48,430 nucleotides of DNA from an uncultured bacterium. GTDB taxonomy: Bacteria > Planctomycetota > Phycisphaerae > Phycisphaerales > SM1A02. The notes below the pieces were generated by a model that ran no database searches, was not told the origin of the DNA, and worked only from the letters and a program-made list of their open reading frames with translations. Location of the stretch: positions 1 through 48,430 of the forward strand of contig CAIKXA010000075.1 in assembly GCA_903831295.1 (NCBI GenBank), written 5' to 3'. A program made the translations under genes and the position numbers. Positions 7,941-48,063 of the stretch are shown here, piece after piece; position 1 is the first letter of the stretch; each line of letters begins with the position of its first letter.

Positions 7941-7946
7941 TATACT
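7941..7946 (+). promoter_or_regulatory. -10 box TATACT, 6 nt before the importer start codon
   Basis: TATACT is followed by TCTTTC and then the ATG at 7953, leaving no room for a leader or ribosome site. TTGACG at 7914-7919 could be a -35, but the 21-nt spacer is too long to be convincing. Leaderless transcription is inferred. Confidence 0.5.
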
Positions 7947-7952
7947 TCTTTC

Positions 7953-10358
7953 ATGCGCCGCGGTAGCGAAATCTGGAAAACTTTCACGTATCTCGCCCGT
8001 GGGGTTTTTGCATTCGCCGCCATTGCGCTAGTGCTGTGGAGTTTCGGGCGTGTGGGGTTGCGACAATGGAATCATTGGCGTGAATCCGCTGAAATTAAAC
8101 AGGAACTAGTCGTGCTGCATTGGTCAGGCGAGGGCGGTCCTGAAGAAGATGAAATTGTTGACAATAGTTTGCGAGCCTTCGAAGCCGCCAACCCCGGCGT
8201 GCGCGTGCGCCGCATCAATCCCGGCGATGCGGGAAGTTTTTATACCAAGCTGCAAACCATGCTTGCCTCTGGCGAGCCCCCAGACGTGTTCTATGTTGGC
8301 GCGGAACGCGTGGCAAGTTTTTCCGACATGGATCTGCTGGAGCCGCTTGATCGTTTTCTAGAAAGCGATCACGCTGGCAATGTGGCGGATCGAATCAAGC
8401 TTGAGGATTTCTACCCCACCACCGTGTCCGCATTTCGATTTGACGGAAAAAACGCTGGAAATGGCGCGCTTTATGGCATTCCCAAAGACTTCACAACGGT
8501 CGGCTTCTATTACAACAAAGATCTCTTTGCCAAGGCTGGCCTGAAATTTCCAAGCAATAATTGGACGTGGGATGAATACATCGCGGACGCCCGCGCCATT
8601 GCCAAGTTGAAAGACGCAAACGGCGAGCCTTACATTGGTAGCGAGTTTGTGACATGGCCAATGATGGTGCGCGCCTATTTGCGCAGCGAAGGCGTGGAAG
8701 TTCGCGGAAATAATTTTGATGATCTGCGTTTGGAAGATCCCAAAGTGCAAGCCGCTTTGGAGCGACTGCGTTCATGGCGCCAAGATGAAACCAACACTCT
8801 TACAAGTGGCCGCAGCAAATTGGCCACAGGCGCCGCCGTGTTCACCACGGGCCGTGTTGGCATGGCCGGACCATTTGGAAGATGGGTTGTTCCGGAGTAC
8901 CGCCGCATCCACGACTTTGATTGGGATTACGCGCCCCTTCCGCGTGGCGCCGCCGACGGAAATGTGATTGCCACTGTGTCTTGGTCCATGGCCAAGCAAA
9001 GCAAGAATAAGGACACCGCTTGGAAACTTATTCGATGGCTCACTGGCCCGGACGCGCAAGCTTCGGGCGCCAAGTTGGGGCTTGCCATTCCCACCAACCG
9101 CGCCGTTGCGCAAAGCACGGCATTTCTAGATTCCACTAAAAAGCCCCTGAATAATCAAGGTTTTTTAGACCCGGCCCCCAACGCCCTAGTGGTGGATTGG
9201 CCCGCGAATCCGCGCTTTGAACAACTCCTTGGCACCACGCTGGACCGGGCGTTAAAAGTTGGCGACCAAACCGTGAAACAATCAACGGATGATTTCAACC
9301 GCATGTGGCTTGCGGAGAACTCCAGCCCGTTAGCGCGCGGAAATTTTGAGGCATTTCCTTGGTCTCTATTTGGCTGGAGCATTTCCATGTGCGCCATCGT
9401 GGTCATTTCTTTGCTGGCCTTCTTGGCGCTTCGTTCTTATGGGGACAGCGCCATGACCCGCGAGGCGCGATGGGGTTGGCTACTTGTGTCGCCGTGGCTG
9501 TTGGGCTTCATGATCTTCATGGCGTTTCCAATTGTCATGAGTTTACTGCTTGGCTTTGCAAAGTGGCGTGGGGTCAGCACGCTAGATGAAGCCACGTGGG
9601 TTGGATGGGGAAATTACAAACAACTCTTATTTCACGACGAGCGATTTATCACAAGTTTGAAAGTGACTTTGTATTACACCATCATCGCCGTTCCAGGCGG
9701 ACAAATGTTGGCACTACTTGCAGCGCTCTTGATGAATCAAAAAGTTCGGGGGATTCATTTTTTCCGCGCAGCGTGGTATTTGCCAAGCGTGCTTGCCGGA
9801 GTTGGCGTGGCTGTATTGTGGCGCTGGGTGTTTGACACGGACGGCGGACTTATGAACGCCGCACTGCGTCCGTTGCTTCATGTGTTTGGCGCCACTCCAC
9901 CAGATTGGTTTGGAAAAGACGCCGCAACGTGGGGCGCGCCAGCTTTCGCCATCATGGGATTCTGGATGGTGGGTGGCGGAATGATGATTTATTTGGCGGG
10001 TTTACAGGGCGTTCCAGAGGAATTGCACGAGGCCGCGCAAATTGATGGCGTGGGCGCTTTCGGCAGATTTTTTCGCATCACCATTCCCATGCTGAGCCCT
10101 GTGATCTTGTTCAATGTGATCATGTCCATCATTGGATGCTTTCAAGTATTCACGCAAGCGTTCGTCATGACCGGCGGCGAGCCAGGCGACCTCACCCGCT
10201 TCTATGTGCTGTATCTATACAACCAAGCGTTCGAGTTTTATGAAATGGGATACGCCAGCGCCATGGCGTGGATTCTTCTTGTAATTATTTTAGCGTTCAC
10301 CATGCTCACGCTGCGTGGCAGCCGCAAGCTTGTGCACTACGAGGGACTGCGTCGATGA
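7953..10358 (+). CDS. Fused sugar-binding protein and MalF-type ABC permease
   Basis: This is the uptake component of a sugar importer. One 801-residue chain joins two normally separate proteins. Residues about 14-34 form an N-terminal membrane anchor. Residues about 50-465 are a family 1 solute-binding domain (LVVLHWSGEGG, then GEPPDVFYVGAERVASFSDM and ALYGIPKDFTTVGFYYNKDL). A further membrane segment lies near 470-493. The rest is a MalF-like permease with the EAA loop EELHEAAQIDGVGAFGRF near residue 688. The frame is open throughout, so it is not a frameshift artefact within this sequence. The stop overlaps the next permease start (ATGA), implying translational coupling. Neighbouring glucan enzymes suggest maltodextrin as substrate; this is inference, not a motif. 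Confidence 0.9.
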   Translation: MRRGSEIWKTFTYLARGVFAFAAIALVLWSFGRVGLRQWNHWRESAEIKQELVVLHWSGEGGPEEDEIVDNSLRAFEAANPGVRVRRINPGDAGSFYTKLQTMLASGEPPDVFYVGAERVASFSDMDLLEPLDRFLESDHAGNVADRIKLEDFYPTTVSAFRFDGKNAGNGALYGIPKDFTTVGFYYNKDLFAKAGLKFPSNNWTWDEYIADARAIAKLKDANGEPYIGSEFVTWPMMVRAYLRSEGVEVRGNNFDDLRLEDPKVQAALERLRSWRQDETNTLTSGRSKLATGAAVFTTGRVGMAGPFGRWVVPEYRRIHDFDWDYAPLPRGAADGNVIATVSWSMAKQSKNKDTAWKLIRWLTGPDAQASGAKLGLAIPTNRAVAQSTAFLDSTKKPLNNQGFLDPAPNALVVDWPANPRFEQLLGTTLDRALKVGDQTVKQSTDDFNRMWLAENSSPLARGNFEAFPWSLFGWSISMCAIVVISLLAFLALRSYGDSAMTREARWGWLLVSPWLLGFMIFMAFPIVMSLLLGFAKWRGVSTLDEATWVGWGNYKQLLFHDERFITSLKVTLYYTIIAVPGGQMLALLAALLMNQKVRGIHFFRAAWYLPSVLAGVGVAVLWRWVFDTDGGLMNAALRPLLHVFGATPPDWFGKDAATWGAPAFAIMGFWMVGGGMMIYLAGLQGVPEELHEAAQIDGVGAFGRFFRITIPMLSPVILFNVIMSIIGCFQVFTQAFVMTGGEPGDLTRFYVLYLYNQAFEFYEMGYASAMAWILLVIILAFTMLTLRGSRKLVHYEGLRR

Positions 10359-11275
10359 GCAATTCCAACGGCGCGACAAATATGAAATACGATTCCCTGC
10401 GCGCTGGCGCTGTCGGTGGCGGCGTGATGCGAACGCTTTCATTTATTAGTCTAGTGTGCGGAACTGCGATCATTGTGTTTCCACTTTTGTGGATGGTCTT
10501 GGTGAGTTTGCTCACTCCAGATCGCGCGCAGGCCGCAACCGTAAGCGGCGACTTGACAAAATTATTTCCCAATGACCCGCAGTGGAATAATTTCTCAGAC
10601 GCGCTTTCTCAAATGGGTTCAGTTCGCTGGAAAGGTTTCTTTGACGCATTGGCCAACAGCATTGTGGTAACCACATTGGTGGTCACGGGCACGGTTCTCT
10701 CATCAAGTTTGGTTGGATTCGCCTTGGCGCGCATACGATTTCGCGGCAATAATGCGCTGTTTTTGCTTATGTTGGGCACAATGATGCTGCCTGGGCAAGT
10801 CACCATGATTCCGCTCTTCCTACTGTTTCGAAATCTAGGATGGGTGGACACAATTCTGCCACTAGTGGTGCCGGCGTTCTTTGGTAGCGCATTCTTTATC
10901 TTCATGTACCGACAATTCATCGCGCAAGTTCCGGAGGCGCTGGTTGAAGCCGCCAAAGTGGATGGCTGGGGATGGTTTGGAATCTGGTGGCACGTCATGC
11001 TTCCACTGTGTCGCCCCGTAACCGCAATCTGCGCGGTGTTCACATTCATCTTCACATGGAATGACTTTCTGGCGCCACTGATCTATTTGCATTCCGATGA
11101 GCAAGCCACGCTTGCCGTGGCGCTGAACAGTTTCCGAAATCAATATGGTGGCGTGAACAAAGTCAATCTACTCATGGCCGCCAGTCTGGTGACCATGATC
11201 CCCTGCATCTTGCTGTTCCTTGTGGCGCAGCGGCAATTCATTGAAGGCCTGGGCAAAGGCGCGGTCAAAGGCTGA
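10355..11275 (+). CDS. MalG-type sugar ABC transporter permease
   Basis: This is the second membrane subunit of the sugar importer, 306 residues with about six membrane segments. The ATPase-contact EAA loop reads EALVEAAKVDGWGWFGIWW, with the expected EAA and G spacing, followed by the LP turn. The start chosen is the ATG at 10355, which overlaps the upstream stop as ATGA. An upstream TTG/ATG extension would run inside the previous gene and lacks family similarity. The gene ends 30 bp before the ATPase gene. The conserved C-terminus ends in QRQFIEGLGKGAVKG, the usual MalG-family ending that follows the last membrane segment. Confidence 0.92.
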   Translation: MSNSNGATNMKYDSLRAGAVGGGVMRTLSFISLVCGTAIIVFPLLWMVLVSLLTPDRAQAATVSGDLTKLFPNDPQWNNFSDALSQMGSVRWKGFFDALANSIVVTTLVVTGTVLSSSLVGFALARIRFRGNNALFLLMLGTMMLPGQVTMIPLFLLFRNLGWVDTILPLVVPAFFGSAFFIFMYRQFIAQVPEALVEAAKVDGWGWFGIWWHVMLPLCRPVTAICAVFTFIFTWNDFLAPLIYLHSDEQATLAVALNSFRNQYGGVNKVNLLMAASLVTMIPCILLFLVAQRQFIEGLGKGAVKG

Positions 11276-11305
11276 CGCGGTCGAAATTCCAACGGAGATT
11301 TTTTT

Positions 11306-12448
11306 ATGGCAACTATTTCACTTGATCGTGTTGGGAAAATTTATCCCGGGGGAGTTCGTGCTGTCGAGGGGGTTGACCTACGCATTGCGCACGGAGAATT
11401 CACCGTGCTCGTTGGTCCATCCGGCTGCGGAAAAAGCACGCTTTTGCGCATGATCGCCGGCTTGGAAACCATCACCGAGGGCGTGATGAAGATTGATGAT
11501 TTAGTGGTGAACCAACTTCCACCACAAGCGCGCGACATTGCCATGGTGTTCCAAAATTATGCGCTCTACCCGCACATGAATGTGCACGACAACATGGCGT
11601 TTGGTTTGTTGCGCCGACGAAAATTTCCAAGTCGCTTGAAATCAATTTTTTCTGGATCATATAACTCGGGTAGAAAAACAGAGCAGCAAGAGATCAATCG
11701 CAAAGTAACCGCCGCGGCCGCCACCTTGGGAATCACGCAACTTCTTGGCCGCCGCCCCGCCGCGCTTTCAGGTGGTCAACGACAACGCGTGGCGTTAGGC
11801 CGTGCTTTGGTTCGCCAACCGAAAGTTTTTCTGTTGGACGAGCCGCTCTCCAATCTCGACGCCAAACTGCGCGTGGAAATGCGCGCCGAACTACGGATGT
11901 TGCACAGACGCCTAGGCGTGACCATGGTGTATGTCACCCACGACCAAGAAGAAGCCATGAGTTTGGGCGACCGCGTAGTGGTGCTGAAGGACGGATTGGT
12001 GCAACAGATCGCCGCCCCACAAGAAATTTATTCCAAACCAGCCAATCGCTTTGTGGCCGAATTTGTTGGCACCCCCACCATGAACATGCTTGAAGGCTCG
12101 CTCACCATGAAAGACAATTGGGCCACATTTGCCTCAAAATCACTGCAATTTCAAGGCGTTGTCTCTGCATGGCAGCCACTGGCTCCACGCGGAGCACAAA
12201 GCGCTGTGCTCGGCATACGCCCAGAACATGTGTTGCTCAACGCCGCAGGAGGCATGAGCGCCACTGTTGATGCGGTTGAACATTACGGCGACCGCATGGA
12301 TGTTGTTGTGCAAGCTTCGGGTCAGCGACTTGTGGCCCGTTGCGGTCCGGACGCCTCCATCCACGAAGGCAGCACCATCTCCGTGGCGGTTGATCTTACG
12401 CGCGCCCATCTATTTGAGAACAACCAAGCCGGCATGCGTATTGGGTAA
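11306..12448 (+). CDS. MalK/MsmX/UgpC-type sugar ABC transporter ATPase
   Basis: This is the energising subunit for the fused importer. The 380-residue protein shows Walker A GPSGCGKST (37-45), Q-loop VFQNYALYPHMNV, signature LSGGQRQRVALGRAL, Walker B VFLLDEP and the switch His in VTHDQEEAM. A C-terminal TOBE/OB region follows from about residue 245. An insertion of roughly 16 residues (KSIFSGSYNSGRKTEQQ) lies between the Q-loop and signature, in the helical subdomain that contacts the permease. It may match this fused partner. The ATG has an AACGGAG ribosome site about 8 nt upstream. Proteins of this family often serve several sugar importers. It is followed by a strong hairpin terminator. 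Confidence 0.93.
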   Translation: MATISLDRVGKIYPGGVRAVEGVDLRIAHGEFTVLVGPSGCGKSTLLRMIAGLETITEGVMKIDDLVVNQLPPQARDIAMVFQNYALYPHMNVHDNMAFGLLRRRKFPSRLKSIFSGSYNSGRKTEQQEINRKVTAAAATLGITQLLGRRPAALSGGQRQRVALGRALVRQPKVFLLDEPLSNLDAKLRVEMRAELRMLHRRLGVTMVYVTHDQEEAMSLGDRVVVLKDGLVQQIAAPQEIYSKPANRFVAEFVGTPTMNMLEGSLTMKDNWATFASKSLQFQGVVSAWQPLAPRGAQSAVLGIRPEHVLLNAAGGMSATVDAVEHYGDRMDVVVQASGQRLVARCGPDASIHEGSTISVAVDLTRAHLFENNQAGMRIG

Positions 12449-12512
12449 TTTTTTGTGCGTGTGAATGTTGCTCACTCAAGCCACTACTGAAAATGCAAAT
12501 GCTTAGAAATAA

Positions 12513-12545
12513 AAATCCCTCGGCAGTTGCCGAGGGATTTCAATT
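12513..12545. terminator. Strong bidirectional Rho-independent terminator
   Basis: AAATCCCTCGGC (12513-12524) pairs perfectly with GCCGAGGGATTT (12529-12540) across an AGTT loop. It is followed by T-rich sequence and preceded by an A-run, so it can end both the importer operon and the convergent dockerin gene. Confidence 0.9.
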
Positions 12546-12567
12546 TTCAATCAACTATAAAGCAGTT

Positions 12568-13719: not shown

Positions 13720-13744
13720 TTTCTCAATCTCCAAAGGATTTTCA

Positions 13745-13758
13745 AGTGATTGCTCACT
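13745..13758. promoter_or_regulatory. Perfect palindrome AGTGA-N4-TCACT upstream of the dockerin-tailed gene
   Basis: AGTGATTGCTCACT lies 26 bp before the ATG at 13719. Its half-sites resemble the GTGA/TCAC halves of CRP-family sites, but the spacing is 4 nt instead of 6. It could be an operator; the binding protein is unknown. Confidence 0.35.
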
Positions 13759-13821
13759 ACGGCCGTAACAAGTACAACCACTTGCATACTTAACGTACTC
13801 CTGATTTCATGAATTGAAAGT

Positions 13822-13846
13822 AAATTATTTAGAATTTGAATAATTT
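13822..13846. repeat. AT-rich inverted repeat (8-bp arms)
   Basis: AAATTATT (13822-13829) and AATAATTT (13839-13846) flank a 9-nt loop, between the divergent dockerin and truA genes. It could be an operator or promoter-region structure. Confidence 0.35.
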
Positions 13847-13946
13847 TTGCCGCCAGTAGCCAGTCATTATTTCTTGGCGCAGACAGGAATTGCTCTGTTA
13901 TAGGAATCCAGAATGAGATGCAGGCAAATCAGATTTGGAAATCGTC

Positions 13947-13952
13947 TATACA
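13947..13952 (+). promoter_or_regulatory. Possible -10 box TATACA, 6 nt before truA
   Basis: TATACA, then TCACAT, then ATG at 13959. This is the same 6-nt spacing seen at other starts here, although the final base of the box is A. No -35 is evident. Confidence 0.3.
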
Positions 13953-13958
13953 TCACAT

Positions 13959-16708: not shown

Positions 16709-16760
16709 CATGAAACAATCTGAATTTGAAATGACCTTTAGATACGCAGGAGAAAACACC

Positions 16761-18758: not shown

Positions 18759-18787
18759 AGTGTAATGCGAGTGGACGCGGTTGACAA
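18759..18787 (-). promoter_or_regulatory. Sigma-70-type promoter for the DegT gene, leaderless geometry
   Basis: TTGTCA (18782-18787), a 17-nt spacer and TACACT (18759-18764) are followed by TGCGCA and the ATG ending at 18752. This is the best -35/-10 pair among the 6-nt-spaced starts in the window. Confidence 0.7.
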
Positions 18788-18830: not shown

Positions 18831-19274
18831 TTAGTGACCCGTGCTGCCAAATCCACCCGTGCCGCGAGCAGTGTCCGACAATTCATCCACTTCCTGGCAA
18901 ACCGCGCGGGCAACTGGCGCAATCACGAGTTGCGCAATGCGCATTCCATGTGTCACGGTAAATGGAACGCGACTCAGATTGATCAGCGGCACTTGCACTT
19001 CGCCACGATAATCCGAATCAATTGTTCCTGGTGAATTTGGGATTCCAATTCCATGATTCGTGGCAAGCCCACTCCGCGGACGAACCTGGCCTTCCCAACC
19101 CACGGGCAGCGCCATGGCGAAGCCGCAAGAAATTCTAGCGATTTCTCCGGCGCCTATGAGCACATCTTTTTCAATGCAGGCGCAAAGGTCCATTCCCGCG
19201 GCGTGCTGGCTTTGGTAATTAGGCAGCGTGGCGGCTGCGTGAATGCGTTTGAGTTGCAGAACTATGTTTGACAC
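18831..19274 (-). CDS. dut: dUTP diphosphatase
   Basis: It hydrolyses dUTP to dUMP and pyrophosphate, keeping uracil out of DNA and supplying dTMP synthesis. The 147-residue protein is a standard trimeric dUTPase. Motifs visible are AGMDLCA (1), RPRSGLA (2), NSPGTIDSDYRGEV (3, with the catalytic Asp), HGMRIAQLV (4) and RGTGGFGSTGH (5). The start is GTG at 19274, with TACTCT 6 nt upstream and no ribosome site. It lies 35 bp downstream of the peroxiredoxin gene on the same strand. Confidence 0.96.
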   Translation of the reverse strand: MSNIVLQLKRIHAAATLPNYQSQHAAGMDLCACIEKDVLIGAGEIARISCGFAMALPVGWEGQVRPRSGLATNHGIGIPNSPGTIDSDYRGEVQVPLINLSRVPFTVTHGMRIAQLVIAPVARAVCQEVDELSDTARGTGGFGSTGH

Positions 19275-19280
19275 GTCAAC

Positions 19281-19286
19281 AGAGTA
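19281..19286 (-). promoter_or_regulatory. -10 box TACTCT, 6 nt before dut
   Basis: TACTCT is followed by GTTGAC and the GTG start ending at 19274. No clear -35 is visible. Confidence 0.45.
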
Positions 19287-24205: not shown

Positions 24206-26122
24206 TCAGTTCTTCACGGGAACCGCGGACACCCTGAAGAATTCCTGCGGCTCAAGCCCGGTCTTGTAGGTGTTCACATTTCCAAAGTCACGCTTCACAA
24301 ATCTCAACCACGGAGCCACGCGAATAAATGTGTACGCCTGATCCTCCGCCACACACGCTTCAAACTCACGCCACACTTGCATGCGCTCGGCTTCATTCAT
24401 GGCGCGGCGACCCTTCTCAATCAACGCGTCGCACTGCGGACTATTCCACTGCGTGAAATTGTCGCCACCTTCTTTAATGCTTTCACTGTGCCAAATTTGG
24501 CGCGGATCGCTCTCGGGCGCATTGTTGCCCCACCCCATGGTTATAGCGTCAAAGTCGCGCAATTTAAGCAATTCTTGATAACGGCTCCAATCCACTGGAC
24601 GCGTTGTCATGATTATGCCGGCTTTGCCGAAACTGTCCTTCACAAAACGAGCGATTCGCTCGCTGATCTCGCCGCCCGTTGCGTAGGTGTATTCAAAAGT
24701 GAATTTGTCGCCTTTTTCATTTTCTAAAATGCCGTCTCCATCGCGATCTTTCCAACCCGCCTCCGCCAAAAGTGATTTTGCTTTTTCAAAATCAAATGGA
24801 AGCGGCGTCACAGATGGATCGCTACCTGGACTTTCTGGATTCACGGGACCCTTGGAAACAATTCCAATGCCATCCCAAATGTCGCGGATCATTTTTTCAC
24901 GGTCAAGCAACATGGTCATGGCGCGGCGCACACGCTTGTCGGCGAATGGGGTCAGTTCCTTGCCAGCGCGCGGACCACATTGCCACGCGATGAAACTGTA
25001 GCCACAGCGCATGTTGGTCCACTTCAAGGCGTAATTTGTTTTCTCAAAGTCCGGTTCCTCTTTCATGATCTTGTTGAACTGCGGACTTGTTGGAAGCATC
25101 ATGGACCCTTCGCCATTGCGATACGCCACCAAGCGTCCAAGATCGTCCTTGATTGTGCGAAAGCGCATGCTGGCAAGCGGCGCGGGCGCGGCCCAATATT
25201 GCTCGTTGCGAACCAGCACAACATCTTGGCCGGGCGTCCATTGATTCTTCAAATCGTCAGCGTTTTTAGGCAGTTTCTCCAAACGAAACTGTCCGGACCC
25301 CATCATCATTCCTGTGGATTGATTGATTTGCGACGGCTCAAATGTGCCGTAGTAATGCTTGGGCAAAATTGGATCTCCAAAAGCTATGAGAATATTGGTG
25401 AACAGCGGTTCCTTGAAGATGAACTCAACCGTTTGGTTGTCAATCACTTTCACATCCTTCAAATTATCCTGCGTGCTGCGCGTGCGCTCGGCCTCGATCA
25501 GAGGATTGTTGATGAAGTCGATGTATGTGTAACGAACATCCTCGCTGGTCACTGGGTGGCCATCGCTGAAGTGCGCCAGTGGATTGATGTGCGCGCGAAT
25601 CCACAAACCATCGGGATCAATTTGCCAACCATCGGCAAGTTGCCCGACCATTTTCAAAGTGCGCGGATCAAATGCTCCAAGACTTTCAAAGACGCGGTCG
25701 ATGACGCGCGTGGAATACACGTCGCTGGAAATATATGGCGTGAGCTTTGCGGGCTGAGCCTCGAACAATTCCGTGAACTCGCCGCCCATGGCGTAACCAG
25801 GAATCTTCGTGGGATCACTGGCGGCGGTTGGCGAATTCCATTGCTCCACTTTCACGCCAGGACGCGCCCACGCGTTGTCGCTTGGCGTTGCTGGTGTCGC
25901 TGCGGAATTGGAGGCACTGGAATTGGCCACGGCGCTAGCAACACCCGCTGGCGCCACGCGAATTTGCTGAATTCGTTTCTCAAGTTCAAGCAACCGATCA
26001 TCCACGCGCTGCAAGAGCACCCATTGTCTATCGCGCTGCACCATCAAAAGCCACATGGAAAGCGCGATGCCAAGAAGAAGCACAAAAAACACGAAATCTT
26101 TGAAGCCGAATCCGTTTTTCAT
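24206..26122 (-). CDS. Family 5 peptide-type solute-binding protein, membrane-anchored
   Basis: It captures peptide or another substrate for the adjacent permeases. The 638-residue protein has the family 5 signatures: HFSDGHPVTSEDVRYTY, ADKRVRRAMTMLLDREKMI and the C-terminal NSPQCDALIEKGRRA. The N-terminus is unusual. There is no lipobox; instead there is a membrane segment (about residues 10-28, VFFVLLLGIALSMWLLMV), then a short coiled-coil-like stretch (LLQRVDDRLLELEKRIQQI) and a Ser/Ala-rich linker to about residue 80. It would thus be tethered and perhaps dimerised. The internal DKDGDG-like loop (DRDGDGILENEKGD) resembles a calcium loop. Confidence 0.92.
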   Translation of the reverse strand: MKNGFGFKDFVFFVLLLGIALSMWLLMVQRDRQWVLLQRVDDRLLELEKRIQQIRVAPAGVASAVANSSASNSAATPATPSDNAWARPGVKVEQWNSPTAASDPTKIPGYAMGGEFTELFEAQPAKLTPYISSDVYSTRVIDRVFESLGAFDPRTLKMVGQLADGWQIDPDGLWIRAHINPLAHFSDGHPVTSEDVRYTYIDFINNPLIEAERTRSTQDNLKDVKVIDNQTVEFIFKEPLFTNILIAFGDPILPKHYYGTFEPSQINQSTGMMMGSGQFRLEKLPKNADDLKNQWTPGQDVVLVRNEQYWAAPAPLASMRFRTIKDDLGRLVAYRNGEGSMMLPTSPQFNKIMKEEPDFEKTNYALKWTNMRCGYSFIAWQCGPRAGKELTPFADKRVRRAMTMLLDREKMIRDIWDGIGIVSKGPVNPESPGSDPSVTPLPFDFEKAKSLLAEAGWKDRDGDGILENEKGDKFTFEYTYATGGEISERIARFVKDSFGKAGIIMTTRPVDWSRYQELLKLRDFDAITMGWGNNAPESDPRQIWHSESIKEGGDNFTQWNSPQCDALIEKGRRAMNEAERMQVWREFEACVAEDQAYTFIRVAPWLRFVKRDFGNVNTYKTGLEPQEFFRVSAVPVKN

Positions 26123-26169: not shown

Positions 26170-27198
26170 TCACCCCGCGGACGCCGGATCAAGTCGATCA
26201 CGCAGTCGATCGGCGGCGAAATTAAGCGTTAAAAGAGCGAACGCAACCACCGCGCACGGTGGAACCAACAACCACCAACGCCCCTTCACCAAATTCAATT
26301 CAGGCAAACCAGCGGCCGCTAAATTTCCAAGGCTTGGAAGTGGATCGCGAATTCCAATTCCAAGAAAGCTTAAAAAACTCTCGCTTAAAATTGCGCTTGG
26401 CACGGCCAAGGCCGCATACGCCGCCACCGGTCCCGCCAAGTTGGGCAACAAGTGCCACCAGAAAATTCGTCCTGTTCCAGCGCCCGCTGCGCGCGCCGCC
26501 TCCACATAAGGCCGCTCGCGCAGCGACAACACTTGCCCGCGCACCACCCGCGACATGGTCAACCAACCCACGCCCGAAATCGCCACGAGCATGGTGAAAA
26601 AATTCAACACTTGGCGCGAAGTCGGCGCAAAATCTCCCAACGCGCGCTCGGCGAATCCATCCACCGCAACACCCAGCAACGTGACCAACAACATGGATGG
26701 CAACGCGTACAACACATCCACCGAGCGCATAAGCACGCTGTCCACGCGTCCGCCAAACCACGCCGCCACAGATCCCCAAAATATCCCAACCGCCGTAGCA
26801 ACCAACGCCGCGCAAATACCCAGCGACAAACTAATCACGCTGCCGGCGCACAAACGCGCAAACACATCGCGGCCAAGTCGATCGGTTCCAAGCAACATGG
26901 CTGGAACATATTGATTCGCTTCACGGGCTTTTTGCGCGCGCTCTATCGCCGCTTGGTCGGCGATCCAAATTGGCGGCATCAAACTTAATTGCAAATTGCC
27001 AGCGGCCCAGCGCGGCGCGGAGACATTGCCACTGAGCGCGACTTCTCCAAATGCCCACGGCGTTGACAAGACCACCAACGCCAACAGTGTCAACAACAAC
27101 CACAAGCCAACGCCCAATCGATTTTTATTTGCGCGGCCGCCACGAGATGGCGCGGGTACTTGCATGGGTTCAATCAAATCTATTTGGCTCGCGGTCAC
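26170..27198 (-). CDS. Second DppC/OppC-type ABC permease
   Basis: This is a conventional 342-residue permease of the peptide importer family, first in the minus-strand transporter run. It has GTDRLGRDVFARLCAGS and the EAA-type loop RPYVEAARAAGAGTGRIFWW. The GTG at 27198 is chosen because TATTCT lies exactly 6 nt upstream; a TTG at 27204 is two codons earlier. The locus thus has two C-type permeases (this and 21064-22566) and a single B-type. Either two permease assemblies share DppB or one C-type has taken another role. It ends 47 bp before the binding-protein gene. Confidence 0.9.
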   Translation of the reverse strand: MTASQIDLIEPMQVPAPSRGGRANKNRLGVGLWLLLTLLALVVLSTPWAFGEVALSGNVSAPRWAAGNLQLSLMPPIWIADQAAIERAQKAREANQYVPAMLLGTDRLGRDVFARLCAGSVISLSLGICAALVATAVGIFWGSVAAWFGGRVDSVLMRSVDVLYALPSMLLVTLLGVAVDGFAERALGDFAPTSRQVLNFFTMLVAISGVGWLTMSRVVRGQVLSLRERPYVEAARAAGAGTGRIFWWHLLPNLAGPVAAYAALAVPSAILSESFLSFLGIGIRDPLPSLGNLAAAGLPELNLVKGRWWLLVPPCAVVAFALLTLNFAADRLRDRLDPASAG

Positions 27199-27204: not shown

Positions 27205-27210
27205 AGAATA
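27205..27210 (-). promoter_or_regulatory. -10 box TATTCT, 6 nt before the second DppC-type gene
   Basis: TATTCT, then TTGGAC, then the GTG ending at 27198. No clear -35 is seen. Confidence 0.5.
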
Positions 27211-32732: not shown

Positions 32733-32742
32733 GCCGCGCAGT

Positions 32743-33759
32743 CTAGCGATGACAGCGACTTTGCCCCACACGAATGGCGCGCGTCAATTGCGCCAGCAAA
32801 ACGCTTTCGCCCTGCACAAATTCAATGGCAAGGCGCGGCCTCACCAACGGCAGCGCGGTCTTCACGCCCAGCGGCGCGATCTTCATCCAATCTTTTTGCG
32901 TGACAATGATCGCGTCCGCGCCCGCTTGCTCCGCACGTTGCACCAAGCGCGCCAACTTGGGCGCGTTCCACTTCGCGTGATCTACCAAGCGCGGAACATC
33001 CACCACGGCCGCCGCCACCGATTCAGTTTGCTCAACAATGGCGCGGGGATTTCCAGTGCCCGCCCAAACCGCCACGCGCTTGCGCCGCAACCAATTCACT
33101 TCATGCACGGCGCCTTCTTCAATTCCCTCAAGACCAGTCCACACGTGGCTACACCAAGCCAAAGGCGCTTGTCCATGCAATTTTATAATTTGATCCGTCA
33201 AGTCATCATCCACTTTGAAGGCGCGCGTGACAATCACTCCCGTGGCGCGCCGCAACGACAGCGCCGGTTCGCGCAACCAACCCAAAGGAAGAAGTTCTCC
33301 ATCAAGCGCTGGCCGCGTGGCGTCGATCAAAACCAAATCGCAGTCACGGCGCAATTGTTCATGTTGAAATCCATCATCTAGAACAACCACATCGCACGCT
33401 GGATTTTTCACACGCATCGCCGCGATTCTTTGCGCACGATCTGCGCCCACAGCCAACACAATTCCCGGCAGTCCCGTGCGATGCTCAAGAACTTCGTCGG
33501 CTTGCTCGGCGCCTTTGTGCCCGCGCAACGCGATCATTGGAGAATGTCCGCCTGCCTGAAGCGCGCGAACGATCCACTGCGTCAAAGGAGTTTTTCCAGT
33601 TCCACCCGCGGTGATATTGCCCACGCTAATCACTGGCAATCCGCAATCCATCGCAAGTCGATCCTGCAAACGCTTGGCGCGCACATGAATGGCCACGCCA
33701 TAGCCAACGCTTGCGGCGGCGGCGAATGGTCGCATCCAAGTTGGCAAAGGTCCACTCAT
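32743..33759 (-). CDS. lpxK: Tetraacyldisaccharide 4'-kinase
   Basis: It adds the 4'-phosphate to the lipid A precursor at the inner face of the cytoplasmic membrane. The 338-residue protein has the family P-loop SVGNITAGGTGKTPL and the conserved VVLDDGFQHEQLRRD. The N-terminal hydrophobic region (about 5-25) fits the membrane-associated helix of LpxK. The ATG at 33759 overlaps the maf stop (ATGA), so maf, lpxK and hldE appear co-transcribed. It ends 10 bp before hldE. Confidence 0.94.
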   Translation of the reverse strand: MSGPLPTWMRPFAAAASVGYGVAIHVRAKRLQDRLAMDCGLPVISVGNITAGGTGKTPLTQWIVRALQAGGHSPMIALRGHKGAEQADEVLEHRTGLPGIVLAVGADRAQRIAAMRVKNPACDVVVLDDGFQHEQLRRDCDLVLIDATRPALDGELLPLGWLREPALSLRRATGVIVTRAFKVDDDLTDQIIKLHGQAPLAWCSHVWTGLEGIEEGAVHEVNWLRRKRVAVWAGTGNPRAIVEQTESVAAAVVDVPRLVDHAKWNAPKLARLVQRAEQAGADAIIVTQKDWMKIAPLGVKTALPLVRPRLAIEFVQGESVLLAQLTRAIRVGQSRCHR

Positions 33760-36840: not shown

Positions 36841-37839
36841 ATGCGCAAGAATCGTGGTTTCACCCTCATCGAGCTCTTGGTCGTTATTTCAATCATCGCT
36901 CTTCTCATTGGTCTACTTTTGCCGGCTTTGTCAAAAGCCCAGCAGAACGCCAGAGAAACGAAGGATCGAGCTCAAATTAAGCAAATCCACGCTGGAATGC
37001 TTATCGCCGCTCAGACCGACAAGAAGGGATCGCTCCCTATTCCTGGTTTGGTTGATCGCCTCCTAGGCGAGCAAGGTGTTGGCGATGAAAGCTGGGCCTA
37101 CAACAATACACGTTGCCTCTATTCGCTCATGGTTGCCAAGGAATATTTCAATCCAGATCTCATCTTTGGCCCAACGGAAATTAATCCAGTGGTGGTTGAA
37201 ATGGGAAAAGCTGGAACTCGTCCATACGATTTCACCAAGTACAACCCAGCTCAAGATGTGTATTGGGATTCTGGCCTGGGTGACAAGGTCGATGCGACCA
37301 CCATTCCAAGCAATGCCTCGTCCACAACCTATACCAAGGATGGAACTGCTCCAGGCTATTGCAACACCTCTTATGCCCACAATGCTCTTTGGGGTATTCG
37401 TCGTGACACGCAATGGAAAAATACTTCGGACTCCACCAAGCCCCTCATGGGAACTCGTGGTGTTAATCCCGCCAAGCGAACCGACAAGGATTACTACACC
37501 AAGAATTACGCCACGCAGTTGATTGGTCCAAAGCAGGAATGGAACGGAAACATTTGCTTCGCCGACAATCACATCGATGGCGTGGTGAGTTTCAAACCAG
37601 AAGGCGTGACGTACGAATGTGGCGGAGCCAGCGCCAAGCGTGATGATATTTTTGACGCTGACTTTCCAACAAGCGGCACTTCAGTGTCAGCCACCAAGTG
37701 CAATAAGCGCGGTGGAATTGATGGAACCACGCTTCTACCACAATCGGCTGGCGATACTTGGCTGGGAGTTTTCCCAAACAAGACCACCCAACTTTTGTAC
37801 GGTGCGCCAGCTTGGGATCCAAGAAACGACGGTCTTTGA
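36841..37839 (+). CDS. Type II pseudopilin-like protein (planctomycete prepilin family), copy 1
   Basis: The 332-residue protein has a type III signal/prepilin N-terminus ([20 protein letters not shown]), with the Gly-Phe cleavage site and Glu at +5 of the mature form. Prepilin peptidase would cleave and methylate it. The rest is a large globular domain with the family feature FADNHIDGVVSF (an H-x-DG-like motif) near residue 245. ATG 36841 has TTGGAGACTCTCAAC upstream, fixing the start. It is far bigger than a true pilin, as usual for such planctomycete proteins, whose function is mostly unknown. It is paralogous to the next gene. Confidence 0.88.
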   Translation: MRKNRGFTLIELLVVISIIALLIGLLLPALSKAQQNARETKDRAQIKQIHAGMLIAAQTDKKGSLPIPGLVDRLLGEQGVGDESWAYNNTRCLYSLMVAKEYFNPDLIFGPTEINPVVVEMGKAGTRPYDFTKYNPAQDVYWDSGLGDKVDATTIPSNASSTTYTKDGTAPGYCNTSYAHNALWGIRRDTQWKNTSDSTKPLMGTRGVNPAKRTDKDYYTKNYATQLIGPKQEWNGNICFADNHIDGVVSFKPEGVTYECGGASAKRDDIFDADFPTSGTSVSATKCNKRGGIDGTTLLPQSAGDTWLGVFPNKTTQLLYGAPAWDPRNDGL

Positions 37840-38899: not shown

Positions 38900-38929
38900 T
38901 TGGCATAGTTTCTTAAATTGATTCATTCC

Positions 38930-39057: not shown

Positions 39058-39063
39058 TAGAAT
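39058..39063 (+). promoter_or_regulatory. -10 box TAGAAT, 6 nt before the nfeD-type gene
   Basis: TAGAAT, then CAAATT, then GTG at 39070. TTCACA at 39032-39037 is a poor -35 candidate with 20-nt spacing. Leaderless start inferred. Confidence 0.5.
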
Positions 39064-39069
39064 CAAATT

Positions 39070-41492: not shown

Positions 41493-41580
41493 AGTTGCTC
41501 GAAGTTGCGGCGACTCTTGCGCTTGGATGTTCGTCTCTTTCAAGTCCAACGGATCAAGTCGCATGCGCATCTCACTGTGC

Positions 41581-41586
41581 TAGGAT
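41581..41586 (+). promoter_or_regulatory. -10 box TAGGAT (extended TGC-TAGGAT), 6 nt before floA
   Basis: TAGGAT is preceded by TGC, as in extended -10 promoters, and followed by TGATTC and ATG at 41593. No -35 is visible, which an extended -10 may not need. Confidence 0.5.
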
Positions 41587-41592
41587 TGATTC

Positions 41593-42612: not shown

Positions 42613-42613
42613 A

Positions 42614-42619
42614 TAACTT
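42614..42619 (+). promoter_or_regulatory. TANNNT hexamer TAACTT, 6 nt before the glycosyltransferase fusion
   Basis: TAACTT, then GATCTG, then ATG at 42626. It follows the floA stop by only one base. It may be chance, since the gene could be read from the floA transcript. Confidence 0.25.
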
Positions 42620-42625
42620 GATCTG

Positions 42626-44461
42626 ATGCCCGTTCTATTCGCGGTGATCCCTGTCTACGACGAACCACACACGCTCGCGTTGTGTGTGGCCAATGTCATG
42701 GCCGTGCAATTACCAGCGCAATGGTCGCTACAAGTGATCGTGGTGGACGACGCCAGTGGCGCGGCCACCGCCTCTGTGGCACGTGAAATCTCACAGTTGT
42801 ACAAAGGCGCCAATCCACAATTTGAATTGCTCACGCACGCGGTGAATCTTGGCAAAGGCGCGGCGCTTCGCACTGGGTTTGAAAGAGCTTTGCAAAAAGC
42901 TACCGACATGGACGCGGTGATCACCCAAGATGGCGATTTGGAATATGACCCAAATGACTACCCCGCTTTGCTCAACGCGTTGACAAACGAACCACTCGCG
43001 GCCGTATTTGGAAATCGATGGGGACACGCGCTCGGTGGCGGCGTGTGGCGAATCTTTCACACGGGCGTCAATCGCTTGTTGACATTTCTCAGCAACCAAA
43101 TCACAGGATTTGATATCAGCGACATGGAAACTGGATACAAACTTTTCCGCGCTCCTTTGCTGCGAAAAATTCTTCCCATGCTCACGGAGGATCGCTTTGG
43201 TATTGAGCCGCAAATGACCGCGGCACTGGCGCGTGCGGGCGCGCGCCTAAGCGAGGTGCCCATTCATTACGCGCCAAGGGATCGCGGAGGAGGGAAAAAA
43301 ATCGGTCCGCTCGATGGGCTTCGCGCTCTATGGGTGATCGCGCGCGAACGAGTGCAACGAGATTCGGAATCAATCCACGCTCAAAAAAACGGGGAAAACA
43401 AGCAAAATAACCTCTCGGTCAACGCCACCCAATTCACAACTCAACAATCAGACGCGCAAGCGGAGACAAATTCCCAGGCGAATATCTCCAATAACTCTTC
43501 TGGCAACTCGGTCAGCAACTCCGCAGGAAAATTAATTCTTCAAGGAGCAGGATTTGTGCTTGGTGTAGCGCTGATCGCTTGGTGTGTGTGGGGCGCGACA
43601 AAGGATCCCGTGGGTTGGCAACGACTGCGCGAGGCATCAAGCATGTCGCTGATTGGACTTCTGTTGTGCTCCCTCGGAAGCATCATTGTCAGCGGACTCA
43701 CATTTTGGATCGCCGCCCGACCAGTGCAAGCACTGCGCGTTCAAGATCAGCAATGGATCAACGCCCTAGCAAGCATGTTGAATTATGCGCCCGTGCGAAT
43801 TGGAATGTTCGTGCGCGCCGCGTACGCCATCAAGGTGGATCACTTTCGCGCCGTGGAACTTGTGGCTTGGTTCGCCTCGTTGGCGTTTACGTTTGTGGTG
43901 GCATTGGCGGCCATCACGGCGGGCACTGTGGCATGGATTCAATTTGGCGCGTGGTCATTTTTTCCAACCTTGATCCTCATCGCCTTGCTTGGTGGATTCA
44001 GCGCGCGTTGGTGCGCCACGCGCGCCATGGTGCAAAAACGCGCCAAAGGTCTAGAACGACTCATCACCAATCCCTTCGCCTTGTGGGGCTCCATTGTGCT
44101 TCACATTCTGGATTTATTTTTTGCGACGGGGCGCGTGCTGCTTGCCATACAAATCCTTGGATTACCGCTGAATTTGGCGCAAACTTTCCTGGTGTCCATG
44201 GCGTCCTTTGCGGCGTCTTTAAATCCGCTTGGTCGACTTGGCTTTCGAGAAGCCGCGGTGGCGTTCACCGCCGGGGCTCTTTCCATTGGCGGACTCGCTG
44301 GCATGGAAAATAAATTTCAAACTCTCGCAGTGATCGAAAGCGCGGGCGAAGCGTTGGTGGCAATTCCTGTTGGCATGTTGGCGCTCTATCCAATTTGGAA
44401 ACGCTTCAAACTTTCTAAACAAGCGCGCGCGCAAGCAGCCGCAGTGAATCGCTATGGCTAA
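42626..44461 (+). CDS. GT2 glycosyltransferase fused to an LPG-synthase-like membrane domain
   Basis: The 611-residue protein has two parts. Residues 1-245 are a GT2 enzyme of the polyprenyl-phosphate sugar transferase type: FAVIPVYDEP, VIVVDDASG, and the DxD-like TQDGDLEYDPNDY. Residues about 250-300 are a Gln/Asn/Ser-rich linker. Residues about 300-590 carry roughly seven membrane segments resembling the lysyl-PG synthase/UPF0104 membrane domain (WINALASMLNYAPVRIG, then a FxASLNPLGRLGFREAA signature). It could load a sugar on a lipid and flip it; that coupling is inference. The final 47 bp overlap the convergent gene at 44415. Confidence 0.85.
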   Translation: MPVLFAVIPVYDEPHTLALCVANVMAVQLPAQWSLQVIVVDDASGAATASVAREISQLYKGANPQFELLTHAVNLGKGAALRTGFERALQKATDMDAVITQDGDLEYDPNDYPALLNALTNEPLAAVFGNRWGHALGGGVWRIFHTGVNRLLTFLSNQITGFDISDMETGYKLFRAPLLRKILPMLTEDRFGIEPQMTAALARAGARLSEVPIHYAPRDRGGGKKIGPLDGLRALWVIARERVQRDSESIHAQKNGENKQNNLSVNATQFTTQQSDAQAETNSQANISNNSSGNSVSNSAGKLILQGAGFVLGVALIAWCVWGATKDPVGWQRLREASSMSLIGLLLCSLGSIIVSGLTFWIAARPVQALRVQDQQWINALASMLNYAPVRIGMFVRAAYAIKVDHFRAVELVAWFASLAFTFVVALAAITAGTVAWIQFGAWSFFPTLILIALLGGFSARWCATRAMVQKRAKGLERLITNPFALWGSIVLHILDLFFATGRVLLAIQILGLPLNLAQTFLVSMASFAASLNPLGRLGFREAAVAFTAGALSIGGLAGMENKFQTLAVIESAGEALVAIPVGMLALYPIWKRFKLSKQARAQAAAVNRYG

Positions 44462-45755
44462 GCCACTTCACTCGCAAGCGTTCCCCTGCGGTGGCAAGCC
44501 ACACGGCGCGACCACTTGTGCGATCCACCCTGCCCACTGCGACTTGTAAATCCATAAGCGACGCTTGTTGCGCGCCTCGGCCCGCGGCGTGAAAGCGCGC
44601 AAGCCATAAGGCCGTGAGCAGATTCACCAAAATCAATCCAAGGCCTTGGTCAATGGATAATCCGTACAAGCCTGAACCCCACGCACGACCGCCAAGAATG
44701 GTGGCCCGAATCCAGCGCTGCAATAAATTGTCCATTGCAGCGGAGTCTTGTTGGTGCAACATTGCGGTGGAAGATTCAGCGTCAAGCGAATGCGTTGATG
44801 CATTATGCATCGGCGTCTTTTGTATTTGGAGATCGCCTTCAATGTGATTTGCAAAAACTCCGGTGGTGCTTTGAAACCTGTCGAAATCAATCGAGCAAAA
44901 ACCCAGTGTTTGCGGGGTAATTCCCTTGCCAGCGGCCCACTTGCGACTGCGCGACCACTGCCCAAACACCGACGCCACTTTGCCGCGCTTGAGCAAATCA
45001 CCAATCTTGGGGTCTTCTATCCGAGTGAACACCGCTTGACGCAATAATTTCCAAGCGCGCGGAGTTGGCTCTGGCCAATCCAATAACGGCAACTCGTGCT
45101 CAACCGCGTTGGTCAGTGTGCTTAATAATTGCCGCAATTTCTCGCCGCGCACATTTTTTAAATTTGCTTGCAGAAGCGAAGTGATCAACCACGCCAAACC
45201 TTGGTAGCGCATAGATGGCGAAATAGTTTTTTTACTTAGCCACGCATCAAGCGCGGTTTCAATCATGTCCACCTCGGCTTCGCTCGCGATCAGGTTGTCT
45301 TGCAACTTCACCGGCATGGGCGCCGATGCCGGCAGCAATTCACTCATGCGCCGCACATCGCCGCGATGCGACTCCAACGCCGCGCCCTTTGAAGCCATAA
45401 CACTGCCGCAAGCAAAACTAATTCCAATATGCGTGTCGCGCACATTAGGCGAAAGCATGAATGGAAAAAACTGGCACGCGAGTGGCTTGGCCTCCAGGCC
45501 AAACTCCGCATGGACCTTGCACAATCCGTTGTCGCCCAAAAACACGCAAGCTCCGTCGTCTTTTTGTTTCAGCCATGAATGACCGCGAAACTTCACCACA
45601 TACTCTTGGCCAAGTCGCTCTTTCCAGCCCTGTTCTTGCAACTTTTGTAAATCGGCGTGGGTCAGTTGCACCGTGAAATCTCGGCAACAAGAACCACATC
45701 CATGGCAAGAATATTTTTGCCCAGGCAACTGGGGAATATAAATAGGAAGCCTCAC
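44415..45755 (-). CDS. YkgJ-type cysteine-cluster protein
   Basis: The 446-residue protein has an N-terminal cluster with Cys17, 20, 23 and 24 (SCHGCGSCCRDF) and more Cys about 50-80 residues later (GLCKVHAEF, LACQFFPF). This matches the YkgJ zinc/iron-sulfur family of unknown function. After about residue 150 there is a long, mainly helical C-terminal part, including a hydrophobic stretch (GLGLILVNLLTALWLARF), that I do not recognise. The GTG start overlaps the rdgB stop (GTGA). Its last 47 bp are antisense to the end of the glycosyltransferase gene. Confidence 0.8.
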   Translation of the reverse strand: MRLPIYIPQLPGQKYSCHGCGSCCRDFTVQLTHADLQKLQEQGWKERLGQEYVVKFRGHSWLKQKDDGACVFLGDNGLCKVHAEFGLEAKPLACQFFPFMLSPNVRDTHIGISFACGSVMASKGAALESHRGDVRRMSELLPASAPMPVKLQDNLIASEAEVDMIETALDAWLSKKTISPSMRYQGLAWLITSLLQANLKNVRGEKLRQLLSTLTNAVEHELPLLDWPEPTPRAWKLLRQAVFTRIEDPKIGDLLKRGKVASVFGQWSRSRKWAAGKGITPQTLGFCSIDFDRFQSTTGVFANHIEGDLQIQKTPMHNASTHSLDAESSTAMLHQQDSAAMDNLLQRWIRATILGGRAWGSGLYGLSIDQGLGLILVNLLTALWLARFHAAGRGAQQASLMDLQVAVGRVDRTSGRAVWLATAGERLRVKWLSHSDSLRLLARALV

Positions 45756-46402
45756 CGCTCTGGCGCTCCAACAACTACGCGCAACTCCTTCGCCAACAAT
45801 CGGGTTGCGTGACCACGGTGGCTGACCTTATTTTTTTCTTCGCTCGACAACTGCGCGCTGGTGACATTCATTCCACCCACAAGAAAATACGCGTCGTACC
45901 CAAACCCTCCGACACCTTGGGGAGACTCCGCAATTTCGCCTTCGCATGCGCCACGCGTCTGAGCGATCATTTTTCCATCAGCATCCGCCAAACACATGAA
46001 GCACACAAAGCGTGCGGCGCGATCGCCCCGCTTCACATCTCGCATGGCCACCATCAATTTTTCGTTATTACGCGCGTCGCGCTGCTCACGCGTTCCATGC
46101 TCGCCCGCCCAAATAGCGCTGTCCACTCCGGGCTCTCCAGCAAGGGCGTCAACTTGCAATCCGGAGTCATCGGCAAGCACCATGCGATTGGTCAAAGCCG
46201 CGTACGCCACGGCCTTGATGCGCGCGTTCTCTTGAAATGTCCGCGCCGTTTCCGCAGGCTCCTTGAATGGTCCGCCTACATCCGACAATGAAAGAAATCG
46301 CACCCATTCACCCAGGCCTTCTTGGGCAAAAATAGCTGATATTTCCTGTACTTTATGTGGGTTTCCACTGGCCACCACAATTTCAATCAGCGCGCTTTTC
46401 AC
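45752..46402 (-). CDS. rdgB: XTP/dITP diphosphatase (RdgB/HAM1)
   Basis: It removes non-canonical purine triphosphates (ITP, dITP, XTP) from the pool. The 216-residue protein has SGNPHKVQEI near the start, LADDSGLQVDAL, GFGYDAYF and SSEEKNKVSHRGHA, all family motifs in order. The GTG at 46402 is chosen because it overlaps the upstream stop (GTGA) and the family starts here; the longer ORF runs back into the carboxylase gene. The window also has maf and dut, so three pool-cleaning enzymes are encoded within 30 kb. Confidence 0.94.
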   Translation of the reverse strand: MKSALIEIVVASGNPHKVQEISAIFAQEGLGEWVRFLSLSDVGGPFKEPAETARTFQENARIKAVAYAALTNRMVLADDSGLQVDALAGEPGVDSAIWAGEHGTREQRDARNNEKLMVAMRDVKRGDRAARFVCFMCLADADGKMIAQTRGACEGEIAESPQGVGGFGYDAYFLVGGMNVTSAQLSSEEKNKVSHRGHATRLLAKELRVVVGAPER

Positions 46403-48051
46403 GTTTGCAACACGCCGGTGCGCAACTCGCCAGTCACAGGCACATTGGCCGCAAGCGCCAATGCGAAAGCAAGTTCTTGCCTGGTGTCCTGCGGTTGAAT
46501 AATGCGATCCACCCAACCGCGGCTCGCCGCGTAGCGAATATCTTGCTGCTGTGAATAACTGTCCGTGATTGCTTTTAATAATTGCTCGCGCATGGTGGCG
46601 TCAATTTGTTCGCCCTTGCGCTCGCGCGCCGCCAAATCAATTTGTAACAACGTGCTTGCTGCTTGGCCCGCGCCCATCACGCTACAGCGCGAACTTGGCC
46701 ACGCCAATGTTAAGAATGGATCAAACGCGCGGCCGCACATGGCGTAATTGCCGGCGCCAAAAGATCCGCCAACCAAAAGTGAAATCTTGGGCACGATGCA
46801 ATTCGCCATGGCGTTGACCATCTTTGCGCCCGAGCGAATAATTCCGCTCTGCTCGCTGTCGCGACCAACCATGAAACCAGTGGTGTCGTTCACGAAAATA
46901 ATTGGAACCCGCCGCTGATTGCATTCCAAAATAAATCGCGCGGCCTTGTCGGCGCTGTCATCGTAAATCACAGCGGGCATGTTCACGGACTTGCTTGGAC
47001 CAGCCTTGCCCCCGGGCAAAACACGCTCGGTCATTTTGCGCTGATTGGCCACAATTCCGCAGGGAAATCCGCCAATATTGGCGTAACCGCACATCAGGCT
47101 TCGTCCAAACTCCGCGCGATATTCATCAAATGAAGCGCCGTCCACGAAACACTCAAGCAACTCTTTCATGTCGTAACTTTTGGCCAAGTCGCCGCGAAAA
47201 ATGTCATACACCTCCGCGCCAGCGCGCGTGGGCTCCACAATCGCGTTAGGCGCAACCGCCAATGCTTTAGCTACTTGGTGCTTAGCCATCAAACTTCGCA
47301 TGCGTTTCAAACACGCCTCGTCATTCGGCTCGCGAAAATCAATCGTGCCGGAAATTTCCGCGTGCATCTTGGCGCCGCCAAGTTCCTCGCTACTTACTTC
47401 TTGACCAATCGCCGCCTTGACCAACGCAGGCCCGGCCAAATATAAGCCACTGCCTTCGGTCATAAGCAGCACATCACACAACACCGGCAAATATCCGCCG
47501 CCCGCCACGCAGTTGCCCATGATTGCGCTGATCTGCGGAATGCCTTTGCCGCTAAACACCGCGTTGTTGCGGAAAATTCGCCCAAAGTCGTCCGTATCTG
47601 GAAAGACATCTTCTTGCAGCGGAAGAAATACGCCGGCGCTGTCCACCAAATATAAAAGCGGCAAGCCCACGCGCTCCGCCACCATCTGCGCGCGAATTAT
47701 TTTCTTGCATGTCATTGGAAAGAACGCGCCAGCTTTCACGGTGGCGTCGTTGGCAATCACCATGCACGCACGACCTTGCACCACGCCCAGCACCGTCACC
47801 ACGCCAGCCGCCGGCGCGCCGCCGTATTCCTTGTACATGCCCCACGCGCTCAACAATCCCAATTCCATCTGAGGCGCACCCGCGTCAAGCAATAATTCCA
47901 AACGCTCGCGCGCAGTCAATCGTTTATTTTTATGTTGCCTCTCCACGCCCGAAGGCCCGCCGCCTTGCTCCGCCCGCGCCGCGTCGGCCAAATACACGTT
48001 CACCACTTCCTTCAAAGACGCGTTCTCTACTTTATGTACGGTGCCTGACAT
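46399..48051 (-). CDS. Acyl-CoA carboxylase beta subunit (methylcrotonyl/propionyl-CoA type)
   Basis: This is the carboxyltransferase subunit of a biotin-dependent acyl-CoA carboxylase. The 550-residue protein has the N-terminal KNKRLTARERLELLLDAG, the first oxyanion region VDSAGVFLPLQEDVFPDTDD, GNCVAGGGYLPVLCD and the second domain GGSFGAGNYAMCGRAFDP. It most resembles methylcrotonyl-CoA carboxylase beta. No biotin-carrying alpha subunit is in the window, so the partner must be elsewhere. The ATG at 48051 has TATTCT 6 nt before it, supporting this start over the ORF extension of 18 residues. It leads the overlapping run to rdgB and the YkgJ protein. Confidence 0.93.
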   Translation of the reverse strand: MSGTVHKVENASLKEVVNVYLADAARAEQGGGPSGVERQHKNKRLTARERLELLLDAGAPQMELGLLSAWGMYKEYGGAPAAGVVTVLGVVQGRACMVIANDATVKAGAFFPMTCKKIIRAQMVAERVGLPLLYLVDSAGVFLPLQEDVFPDTDDFGRIFRNNAVFSGKGIPQISAIMGNCVAGGGYLPVLCDVLLMTEGSGLYLAGPALVKAAIGQEVSSEELGGAKMHAEISGTIDFREPNDEACLKRMRSLMAKHQVAKALAVAPNAIVEPTRAGAEVYDIFRGDLAKSYDMKELLECFVDGASFDEYRAEFGRSLMCGYANIGGFPCGIVANQRKMTERVLPGGKAGPSKSVNMPAVIYDDSADKAARFILECNQRRVPIIFVNDTTGFMVGRDSEQSGIIRSGAKMVNAMANCIVPKISLLVGGSFGAGNYAMCGRAFDPFLTLAWPSSRCSVMGAGQAASTLLQIDLAARERKGEQIDATMREQLLKAITDSYSQQQDIRYAASRGWVDRIIQPQDTRQELAFALALAANVPVTGELRTGVLQT

Positions 48052-48057
48052 GCCCGC

Positions 48058-48063
48058 AGAATA
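48058..48063 (-). promoter_or_regulatory. -10 box TATTCT, 6 nt before the carboxylase gene
   Basis: TATTCT, then GCGGGC, then ATG ending at 48051. No -35 match is seen. Confidence 0.5.

Follow-up and report, generated by a model that had tools for sequence, protein, structure and literature searches.

Candidate -10 elements abutting start codons in a planctomycete genome

Eight genes in the window, the 48,430-nucleotide stretch of planctomycete DNA analyzed here, have the hexamer TANNNT exactly six nucleotides before their start codons, and the question that this locus raises is what so constant a distance signifies. We consider it highly probable that these boxes would act as sigma-70-type -10 elements abutting the start codons and giving rise to leaderless or nearly leaderless mRNAs, beside genes led by Shine-Dalgarno (SD) sequences. 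The housekeeping sigma factor would read the boxes as -10 elements, mostly without a -35, and the first nucleotide of the start codon would be where RNA polymerase begins. The resulting mRNA would open directly with AUG or GUG, or with one to three additional nucleotides at genes whose distance between box and start (the spacer) is 7-9 nt, and the ribosome would start on the 5'-terminal start codon without SD contact. We infer the transcription start, the sigma factor, and the translation route at boxed genes alike.

Signals of this kind are known elsewhere in bacteria. In the accessible parts of Zheng 2011, TA-like signals of leaderless genes take the form TAtaaT in medium-GC genomes and TAnnnT above 60% GC, and the leaderless groups listed there exclude Planctomycetes, a word absent from the accessible main text (PMC3160421). 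A study of Deinococcus-Thermus (2025) tested a -10 motif adjoining open reading frames by experiment and, in the portion available, gives an average frequency of about 30% (PMC12340547). The nearest literature match that joins leaderless expression with Phycisphaerae or Planctomycetota concerns anti-SD types, as far as its available text goes (PMC10783764). No report of leaderless expression in this planctomycete order was found in the open-licence literature among the matches listed, and subscription papers may hold one.

Boxes and near variants in the window

The window is contig C75 of a Phycisphaerae-like metagenome-assembled genome (MAG) of 2.48 Mb in 120 contigs, 84% complete, with a GC content of 53%. 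Direct reading returned all eight boxes listed by the initial annotation, together with its three variants (Table 1). Two of the variants are weaker, namely TATACA before 13959 (spacer 6) and CAATAT before 36323 (spacer 6, with TTGACG 18 nt upstream); neither start shows a TANNNT at the aligned start of its orthologue in G001, a genome of the same genus. The accompanying chance argument stood as to the excess (8/39, P ~2e-9), while its quoted expectation of one in 60-80 starts gives way to a measured rate of about 0.9% per position.

Table 1. Boxes upstream of start codons in the window
Box	Position	Strand	Spacer (nt)	Start codon	Gene or remark
-10-like box TATACT	7941..7946	+	6	ATG 7953	solute-binding protein/permease fusion gene 7953-10358
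-10-like box TACACT	18759..18764	-	6	ATG 18752	DegT aminotransferase gene
-10-like box TACTCT	19281..19286	-	6	GTG 19274	dUTPase gene
-10-like box TATTCT	27205..27210	-	6	GTG 27198	ABC permease gene
-10-like box TAGAAT	39058..39063	+	6	GTG 39070	NfeD family gene
-10-like box TAGGAT	41581..41586	+	6	ATG 41593	floA
box TAACTT	42614..42619	+	6	ATG 42626	glycosyltransferase gene; directly past floA stop; weakest of eight
-10-like box TATTCT	48058..48063	-	6	ATG 48051	carboxyltransferase gene 46399-48051
box TAGACT	32740..32745	-	7	ATG 32732	near-leaderless variant

A codon-pair gene caller blind to upstream sequence picked the same start at six of the eight boxed genes of the window. At 19274 and 27198 it set the start further inside the open reading frame than the boxed GTG. 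The longer start at 19274 is supported by the orthologues and by the dUTPase domain, whose first residue is residue 15 when translation is taken from 19274, and the longer start at 27198 is likewise supported by its orthologues. The caller omitted the open reading frame 44415-45755, probably for overlap.

Several further features of the window deserve mention in their own right. The gene at 7953-10358 encodes an 801-aa protein in which a solute-binding domain is fused to an ABC permease domain, with full-length matches in several same-genus genomes; to our knowledge, such a fusion in one protein is unusual. The protein starting at 36841 has the N-terminus MRKNRGFTLIE, prepilin-type by eye, with a normal SD sequence in front of its gene. 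On the minus strand, a TANNNT lies 10 nt before the start at 26122 and 9 nt before that of the G001 orthologue, a distance that suggests a leader of a few bases.

Box frequency across the genome and its relatives

The census beyond the window covered 40 further stretches of the MAG (about 670 kb of the 2.48 Mb, 505 called genes); genes running off a stretch, starts less than 75 nt from a stretch end, and open reading frames shorter than 60 aa were dropped, and background was defined as the mean TANNNT count at spacers 15-64. With starts set by the upstream-blind caller, TANNNT stands at spacer 6 before 53/505 genes outside the window against a background of 4.6 (P 3e-37), and before 6/36 called genes of the window itself. 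Spacers 7 and 9 hold 17/505 and 16/505, respectively; a one-codon start miscall was rejected as the source of the spacer-9 shoulder, a start codon occurring at -3 in 0/16 cases. When all in-frame ATG or GTG candidates near the 5' end are counted instead, spacer 6 is occupied in 77/1233 against 10.8, and out-of-frame candidate starts in both other frames give no TANNNT peak. The peak requires T, A, and T jointly (TA without the T, 17 vs 13.6; T without the A, 20 vs 31.6), with similar contributions from TA[CT]NNT (31) and TA[AG]NNT (28). Expressed as excess over background, window included, spacer 6 accounts for 10.0% of 541 genes and spacers 6-9 for 15.1%; we infer that some 10% (strict) to 15% of genes are leaderless.

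In 100 kb of Escherichia coli K-12, spacer 6 was occupied at 1/81 called and 0/87 annotated starts, with no peak, and the caller hit the annotated start in 59/81 genes. In 50 kb of Thermus thermophilus pTT27, annotated starts gave 6/47 at spacer 6 against 0.22, a peak at the same spacer as in this genome. The second positive control, 50 kb of the Deinococcus radiodurans plasmid MP1, gave 2/42 annotated starts at spacer 6 and two at spacer 7 against 0.18, a signal weaker than expected.

Samples from relatives comprised 134-200 kb of one genome each, a size at which weak box use would escape detection. Spacer 6 is occupied in 12/144 genes of G001 (vs 0.50) and in 4/102 of G108, of the same family but another genus (vs 0.24). 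Elsewhere in the order, genomes of other families gave 7/76 (G103, vs 0.46) and 5/140 (G028, vs 0.70), and in G022 the peak falls at spacer 7 (6/98), with only 2/98 at spacer 6 (vs 0.78). Within the class, one genome shows a weak signal (G032: 3/141 vs 0.68, P 0.03; spacers 6 and 7 together, P 0.003), and two show no significant peak at spacer 6 (G044, 2/119 vs 3.46; G056, 1/126 vs 1.90), as is also the case for two genomes of the same phylum (G071, 2/118 vs 1.28; G082, 4/119 vs 3.36). Use of the adjacent box is thus pronounced within the genus and still found in the order, whereas samples from further away show it weakly or not at all. The genome-wide peak at -12 to -7 that the initial annotation had named beforehand as its test is therefore found, sharply, in the genome sample, and again in the same genus and in related families.

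The same annotation had held that the genome mixes leaderless-type and SD modes, and this is borne out by the boxes together with SD-like motifs at 20% of starts (6% at control positions) and an intact anti-SD in relatives. Among 19 genomes giving a 16S match, the 16S loci of 12 relatives were read, and all retain the anti-SD CACCTCC, which argues against a loss of the SD mechanism through a degenerate anti-SD; the source MAG itself has no 16S match. In four relatives (G006, G007, G018, and G027) the 16S matches come in pieces, with breaks near model positions 873-902 that are probably contig ends. SD-like matches are rarer in boxed genes (2/53 vs 99/407), but a box written in silico into other genes alone lowers their SD rate to 31/435, compared with 3/59 in boxed genes (p = 0.78). 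The avoidance is mechanical, the box sitting on the SD site, and is for this reason not counted as support. In a pool of 685 genes from this genome and G001, 407 (about 60%) lack both an SD-like motif and a box at any spacer from 5 to 9.

Conservation of the boxes among orthologues

Orthologue counts refer to loci read that cover the start, with spacers 6-8 accepted. Six window boxes (7953, 18752, 19274, 39070, 41593, and 48051) are kept in every same-genus orthologue read while their flanks vary. The 7953 box lies at spacer 6 in 9/9 of these, with matching genomes G003, G007, G010, and G012 outside the count, and the 48051 box recurs in all 11 other loci covering the start (eight at spacer 6, three at spacers 7-8; two more loci stop short of it). 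In the DegT gene, the box is present in 14/14 other same-genus loci, 13 at spacer 6 and one at spacer 7; across the 15 sequences T-12, A-11, and T-7 are conserved at 93%, 93%, and 100%, as against 33-60% at many flanking positions. Upstream in the same set, the TTG at positions -35 to -33 is mostly kept (73%, 80%, and 100%), so that DegT seems to be one boxed gene keeping a -35, its putative hexamer lying 17 nt before the box.

The dUTPase box recurs in 15/15 other loci covering the start (one more falls short of it), 12 at spacer 6 and three at spacer 7. Upstream of the dUTPase gene in five loci (L234, L235, L236, L237, and L238), the box reads TAGNNT right after coding-like sequence, and its TAG may double as a stop for the gene before it. 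The 27198 permease box is found at spacer 6 in 7/10 same-genus orthologues read, with five further matching genomes outside the count; in the remaining three, a box stands at spacer 7 before a GTG 11 codons in (two loci) or at spacer 10 before a GTG eight codons in (one locus).

For the three genes around floA, the 26 best matches of each (out of 74 for nfeD, 80 for floA, and 60 for 42626) were graded by closeness, and the next-closest group of loci extends into the same genus. The floA relatives are the best 80 of 481 matches, eight of them at 97-100% FloA identity; a box census over these 80 loci is not independent because the same genes recur. The nfeD box occurs in 7/7 closest and 5/5 next-closest loci covering the start (L055 does not reach it), and in 7/13 more distant loci some in-frame start in the vicinity is preceded by a box at spacer 5-7. 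The floA box occurs at spacer 6 in 8/8 closest loci and at spacers 6-8 in 6/6 next-closest, and in 3/12 more distant loci, most of which have none. The 42626 box is found in 7/8 closest loci, 0/4 next-closest covering the start (L030 and L035 do not reach it), and 0/12 more distant ones; it appears to be conserved only in close relatives, having failed the wider test.

Box form, competing readings, and place among known systems

The form and setting of the boxes were drawn from a pool of 71 spacer-6 genes of this genome sample, the window, and G001, which begin with ATG (58) or GTG (13) and never with TTG. The pooled box has the form TA[G/C]n[A/C]T and is preferentially preceded by C-15 and G-14; neither a TG nor a -35 is part of it. 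A TTGACA-like -35 at 16-19 nt is no more frequent in boxed than in other genes (12/71 vs 87/555, p 0.73), which rules out a general -35 element; since it is not enriched in the pool, the sigma-70 promoter reading draws solely on the -10. The RpoD protein looks ordinary by eye, the stretches that we take to be regions 2.4, 3.0, and 4.2 having their usual form, and a special factor is unnecessary for explaining the boxes.

Compared with TANNNT elsewhere in the same upstream regions of this genome, an extended -10 (TG at -15/-14) is not enriched at the boxes (3/77 vs 13/198), and CG at these positions is (19/77 vs 15/198, p 0.0003). The CG is not significant in G001 or in other families, and a CG-extended -10 was therefore dismissed as a clade feature. 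A preference for G/C at -10 likewise exceeds TANNNT elsewhere in the upstream regions of this genome, and also in other families (22/30 vs 46/95, p 0.02); in G001 neither preference rises above that comparison. Boxed genes are somewhat more often divergent from their neighbour, a modest effect (22/53 vs 106/390, p 0.036), and 10/53 overlap or adjoin (within 30 nt) a same-strand gene. Boxes close behind or inside same-strand genes suggest internal promoters.

Could the boxes be promoters whose transcripts are translated from a later start codon, the called starts being wrong? The caller's success at just 59/81 E. coli genes and the mild enrichment of spacers 7 and 9 lend this some colour, but an earlier possible start codon is absent in 38/59 boxed genes, the dUTPase and DegT genes have a single candidate start within 60 nt, and many orthologue alignments extend to residue 1. 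Moreover, start and box move together in four dUTPase loci, where the start codon is displaced 12 nt upstream with respect to the protein and the box keeps its distance of 6 nt. We judge this reading very improbable.

Very improbable, too, is a TANNNT at -12 that is no promoter and serves leadered mRNAs as a translational element, for instance an S1 or AT-rich site. It finds a footing in the AT-rich bias before non-SD genes of SD-poor phyla, Planctomycetes included, for which a 2017 survey with one planctomycete suggests, in its accessible text, leaderless mRNA and/or S1 (PMC5397173). Yet the signal here is not AT-rich overall, with G/C at -10 in 56/77 boxes, G at -14 in 37/77, and A scarce from -16 to -13; the exact T-A-T pattern is required; and overlap with the gene before them is rare among boxed genes (2/53 vs 68/390, p 0.008). 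Hardly credible, finally, is an artefact of in-frame TAA and TAG stops piling up before called starts and mimicking TANNNT at the in-frame -12: the in-frame background does exceed the out-of-frame one (6.2 vs 4.2) and an in-frame stop lies within 12 nt in 29/59 boxed genes, but TAC and TAT boxes, which cannot be stops, peak equally (31 vs 3.4), TA[AG]NN[ACG] has no peak (9 vs 6.1), and spacers 3 and 12 are flat; these counts refute it.

Such an arrangement has counterparts in other phyla. The leaderless transcriptome of Mycobacterium tuberculosis reportedly features a -10 element beside the start codon, with both ATG and GTG starts; those leaderless starts were mapped by experiment in an unrelated phylum, whereas ours are read from the sequence. 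As in Deinococcus-Thermus, to go by the available parts of that study, a TANNNT lies a few base pairs before the start, the mRNA would be leaderless, a -35 is optional, and genes with ribosome-binding sites coexist; the phylum, by contrast, is another, the strict share is about 10% rather than about 30%, the box favours G/C at -10 as well as C-15 and G-14, unlike the -10 motif there, and the case here is built on sequence alone (PMC12340547). The boxes also resemble the signals described in the accessible text of Zheng 2011 in placing a TANNNT some 12 bp ahead of the start and in occurring alongside SD genes, and differ in that the TAnnnT form occurs here in a genome of 53% GC (PMC3160421).

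The mechanism is thus a known one, and what seems new is the clade and its form of the box, in a phylum where this mode seems little described. A tentative and, taken as a whole, rather doubtful extension holds that initiation is mixed throughout this Phycisphaerae order, with a few to more than 10% of genes leaderless and the share highest in this genus; that the lineage's -10 has the form CGnTA[GC]n[AC]T here, with no -35; that this form dates from a high-GC ancestor and outlasted the drift of the genus to about 53% GC; and that genes switch between boxed and unboxed states between species.

On the preferred reading, a planctomycete order would join the bacteria with leaderless expression. 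Gene calling in these MAGs would profit: the box would fix true starts, GTG included, and promoter positions would become obtainable from it without RNA data. With boxed and unboxed orthologues side by side in one genus, the gain and loss of leaderless initiation would be traceable gene by gene.
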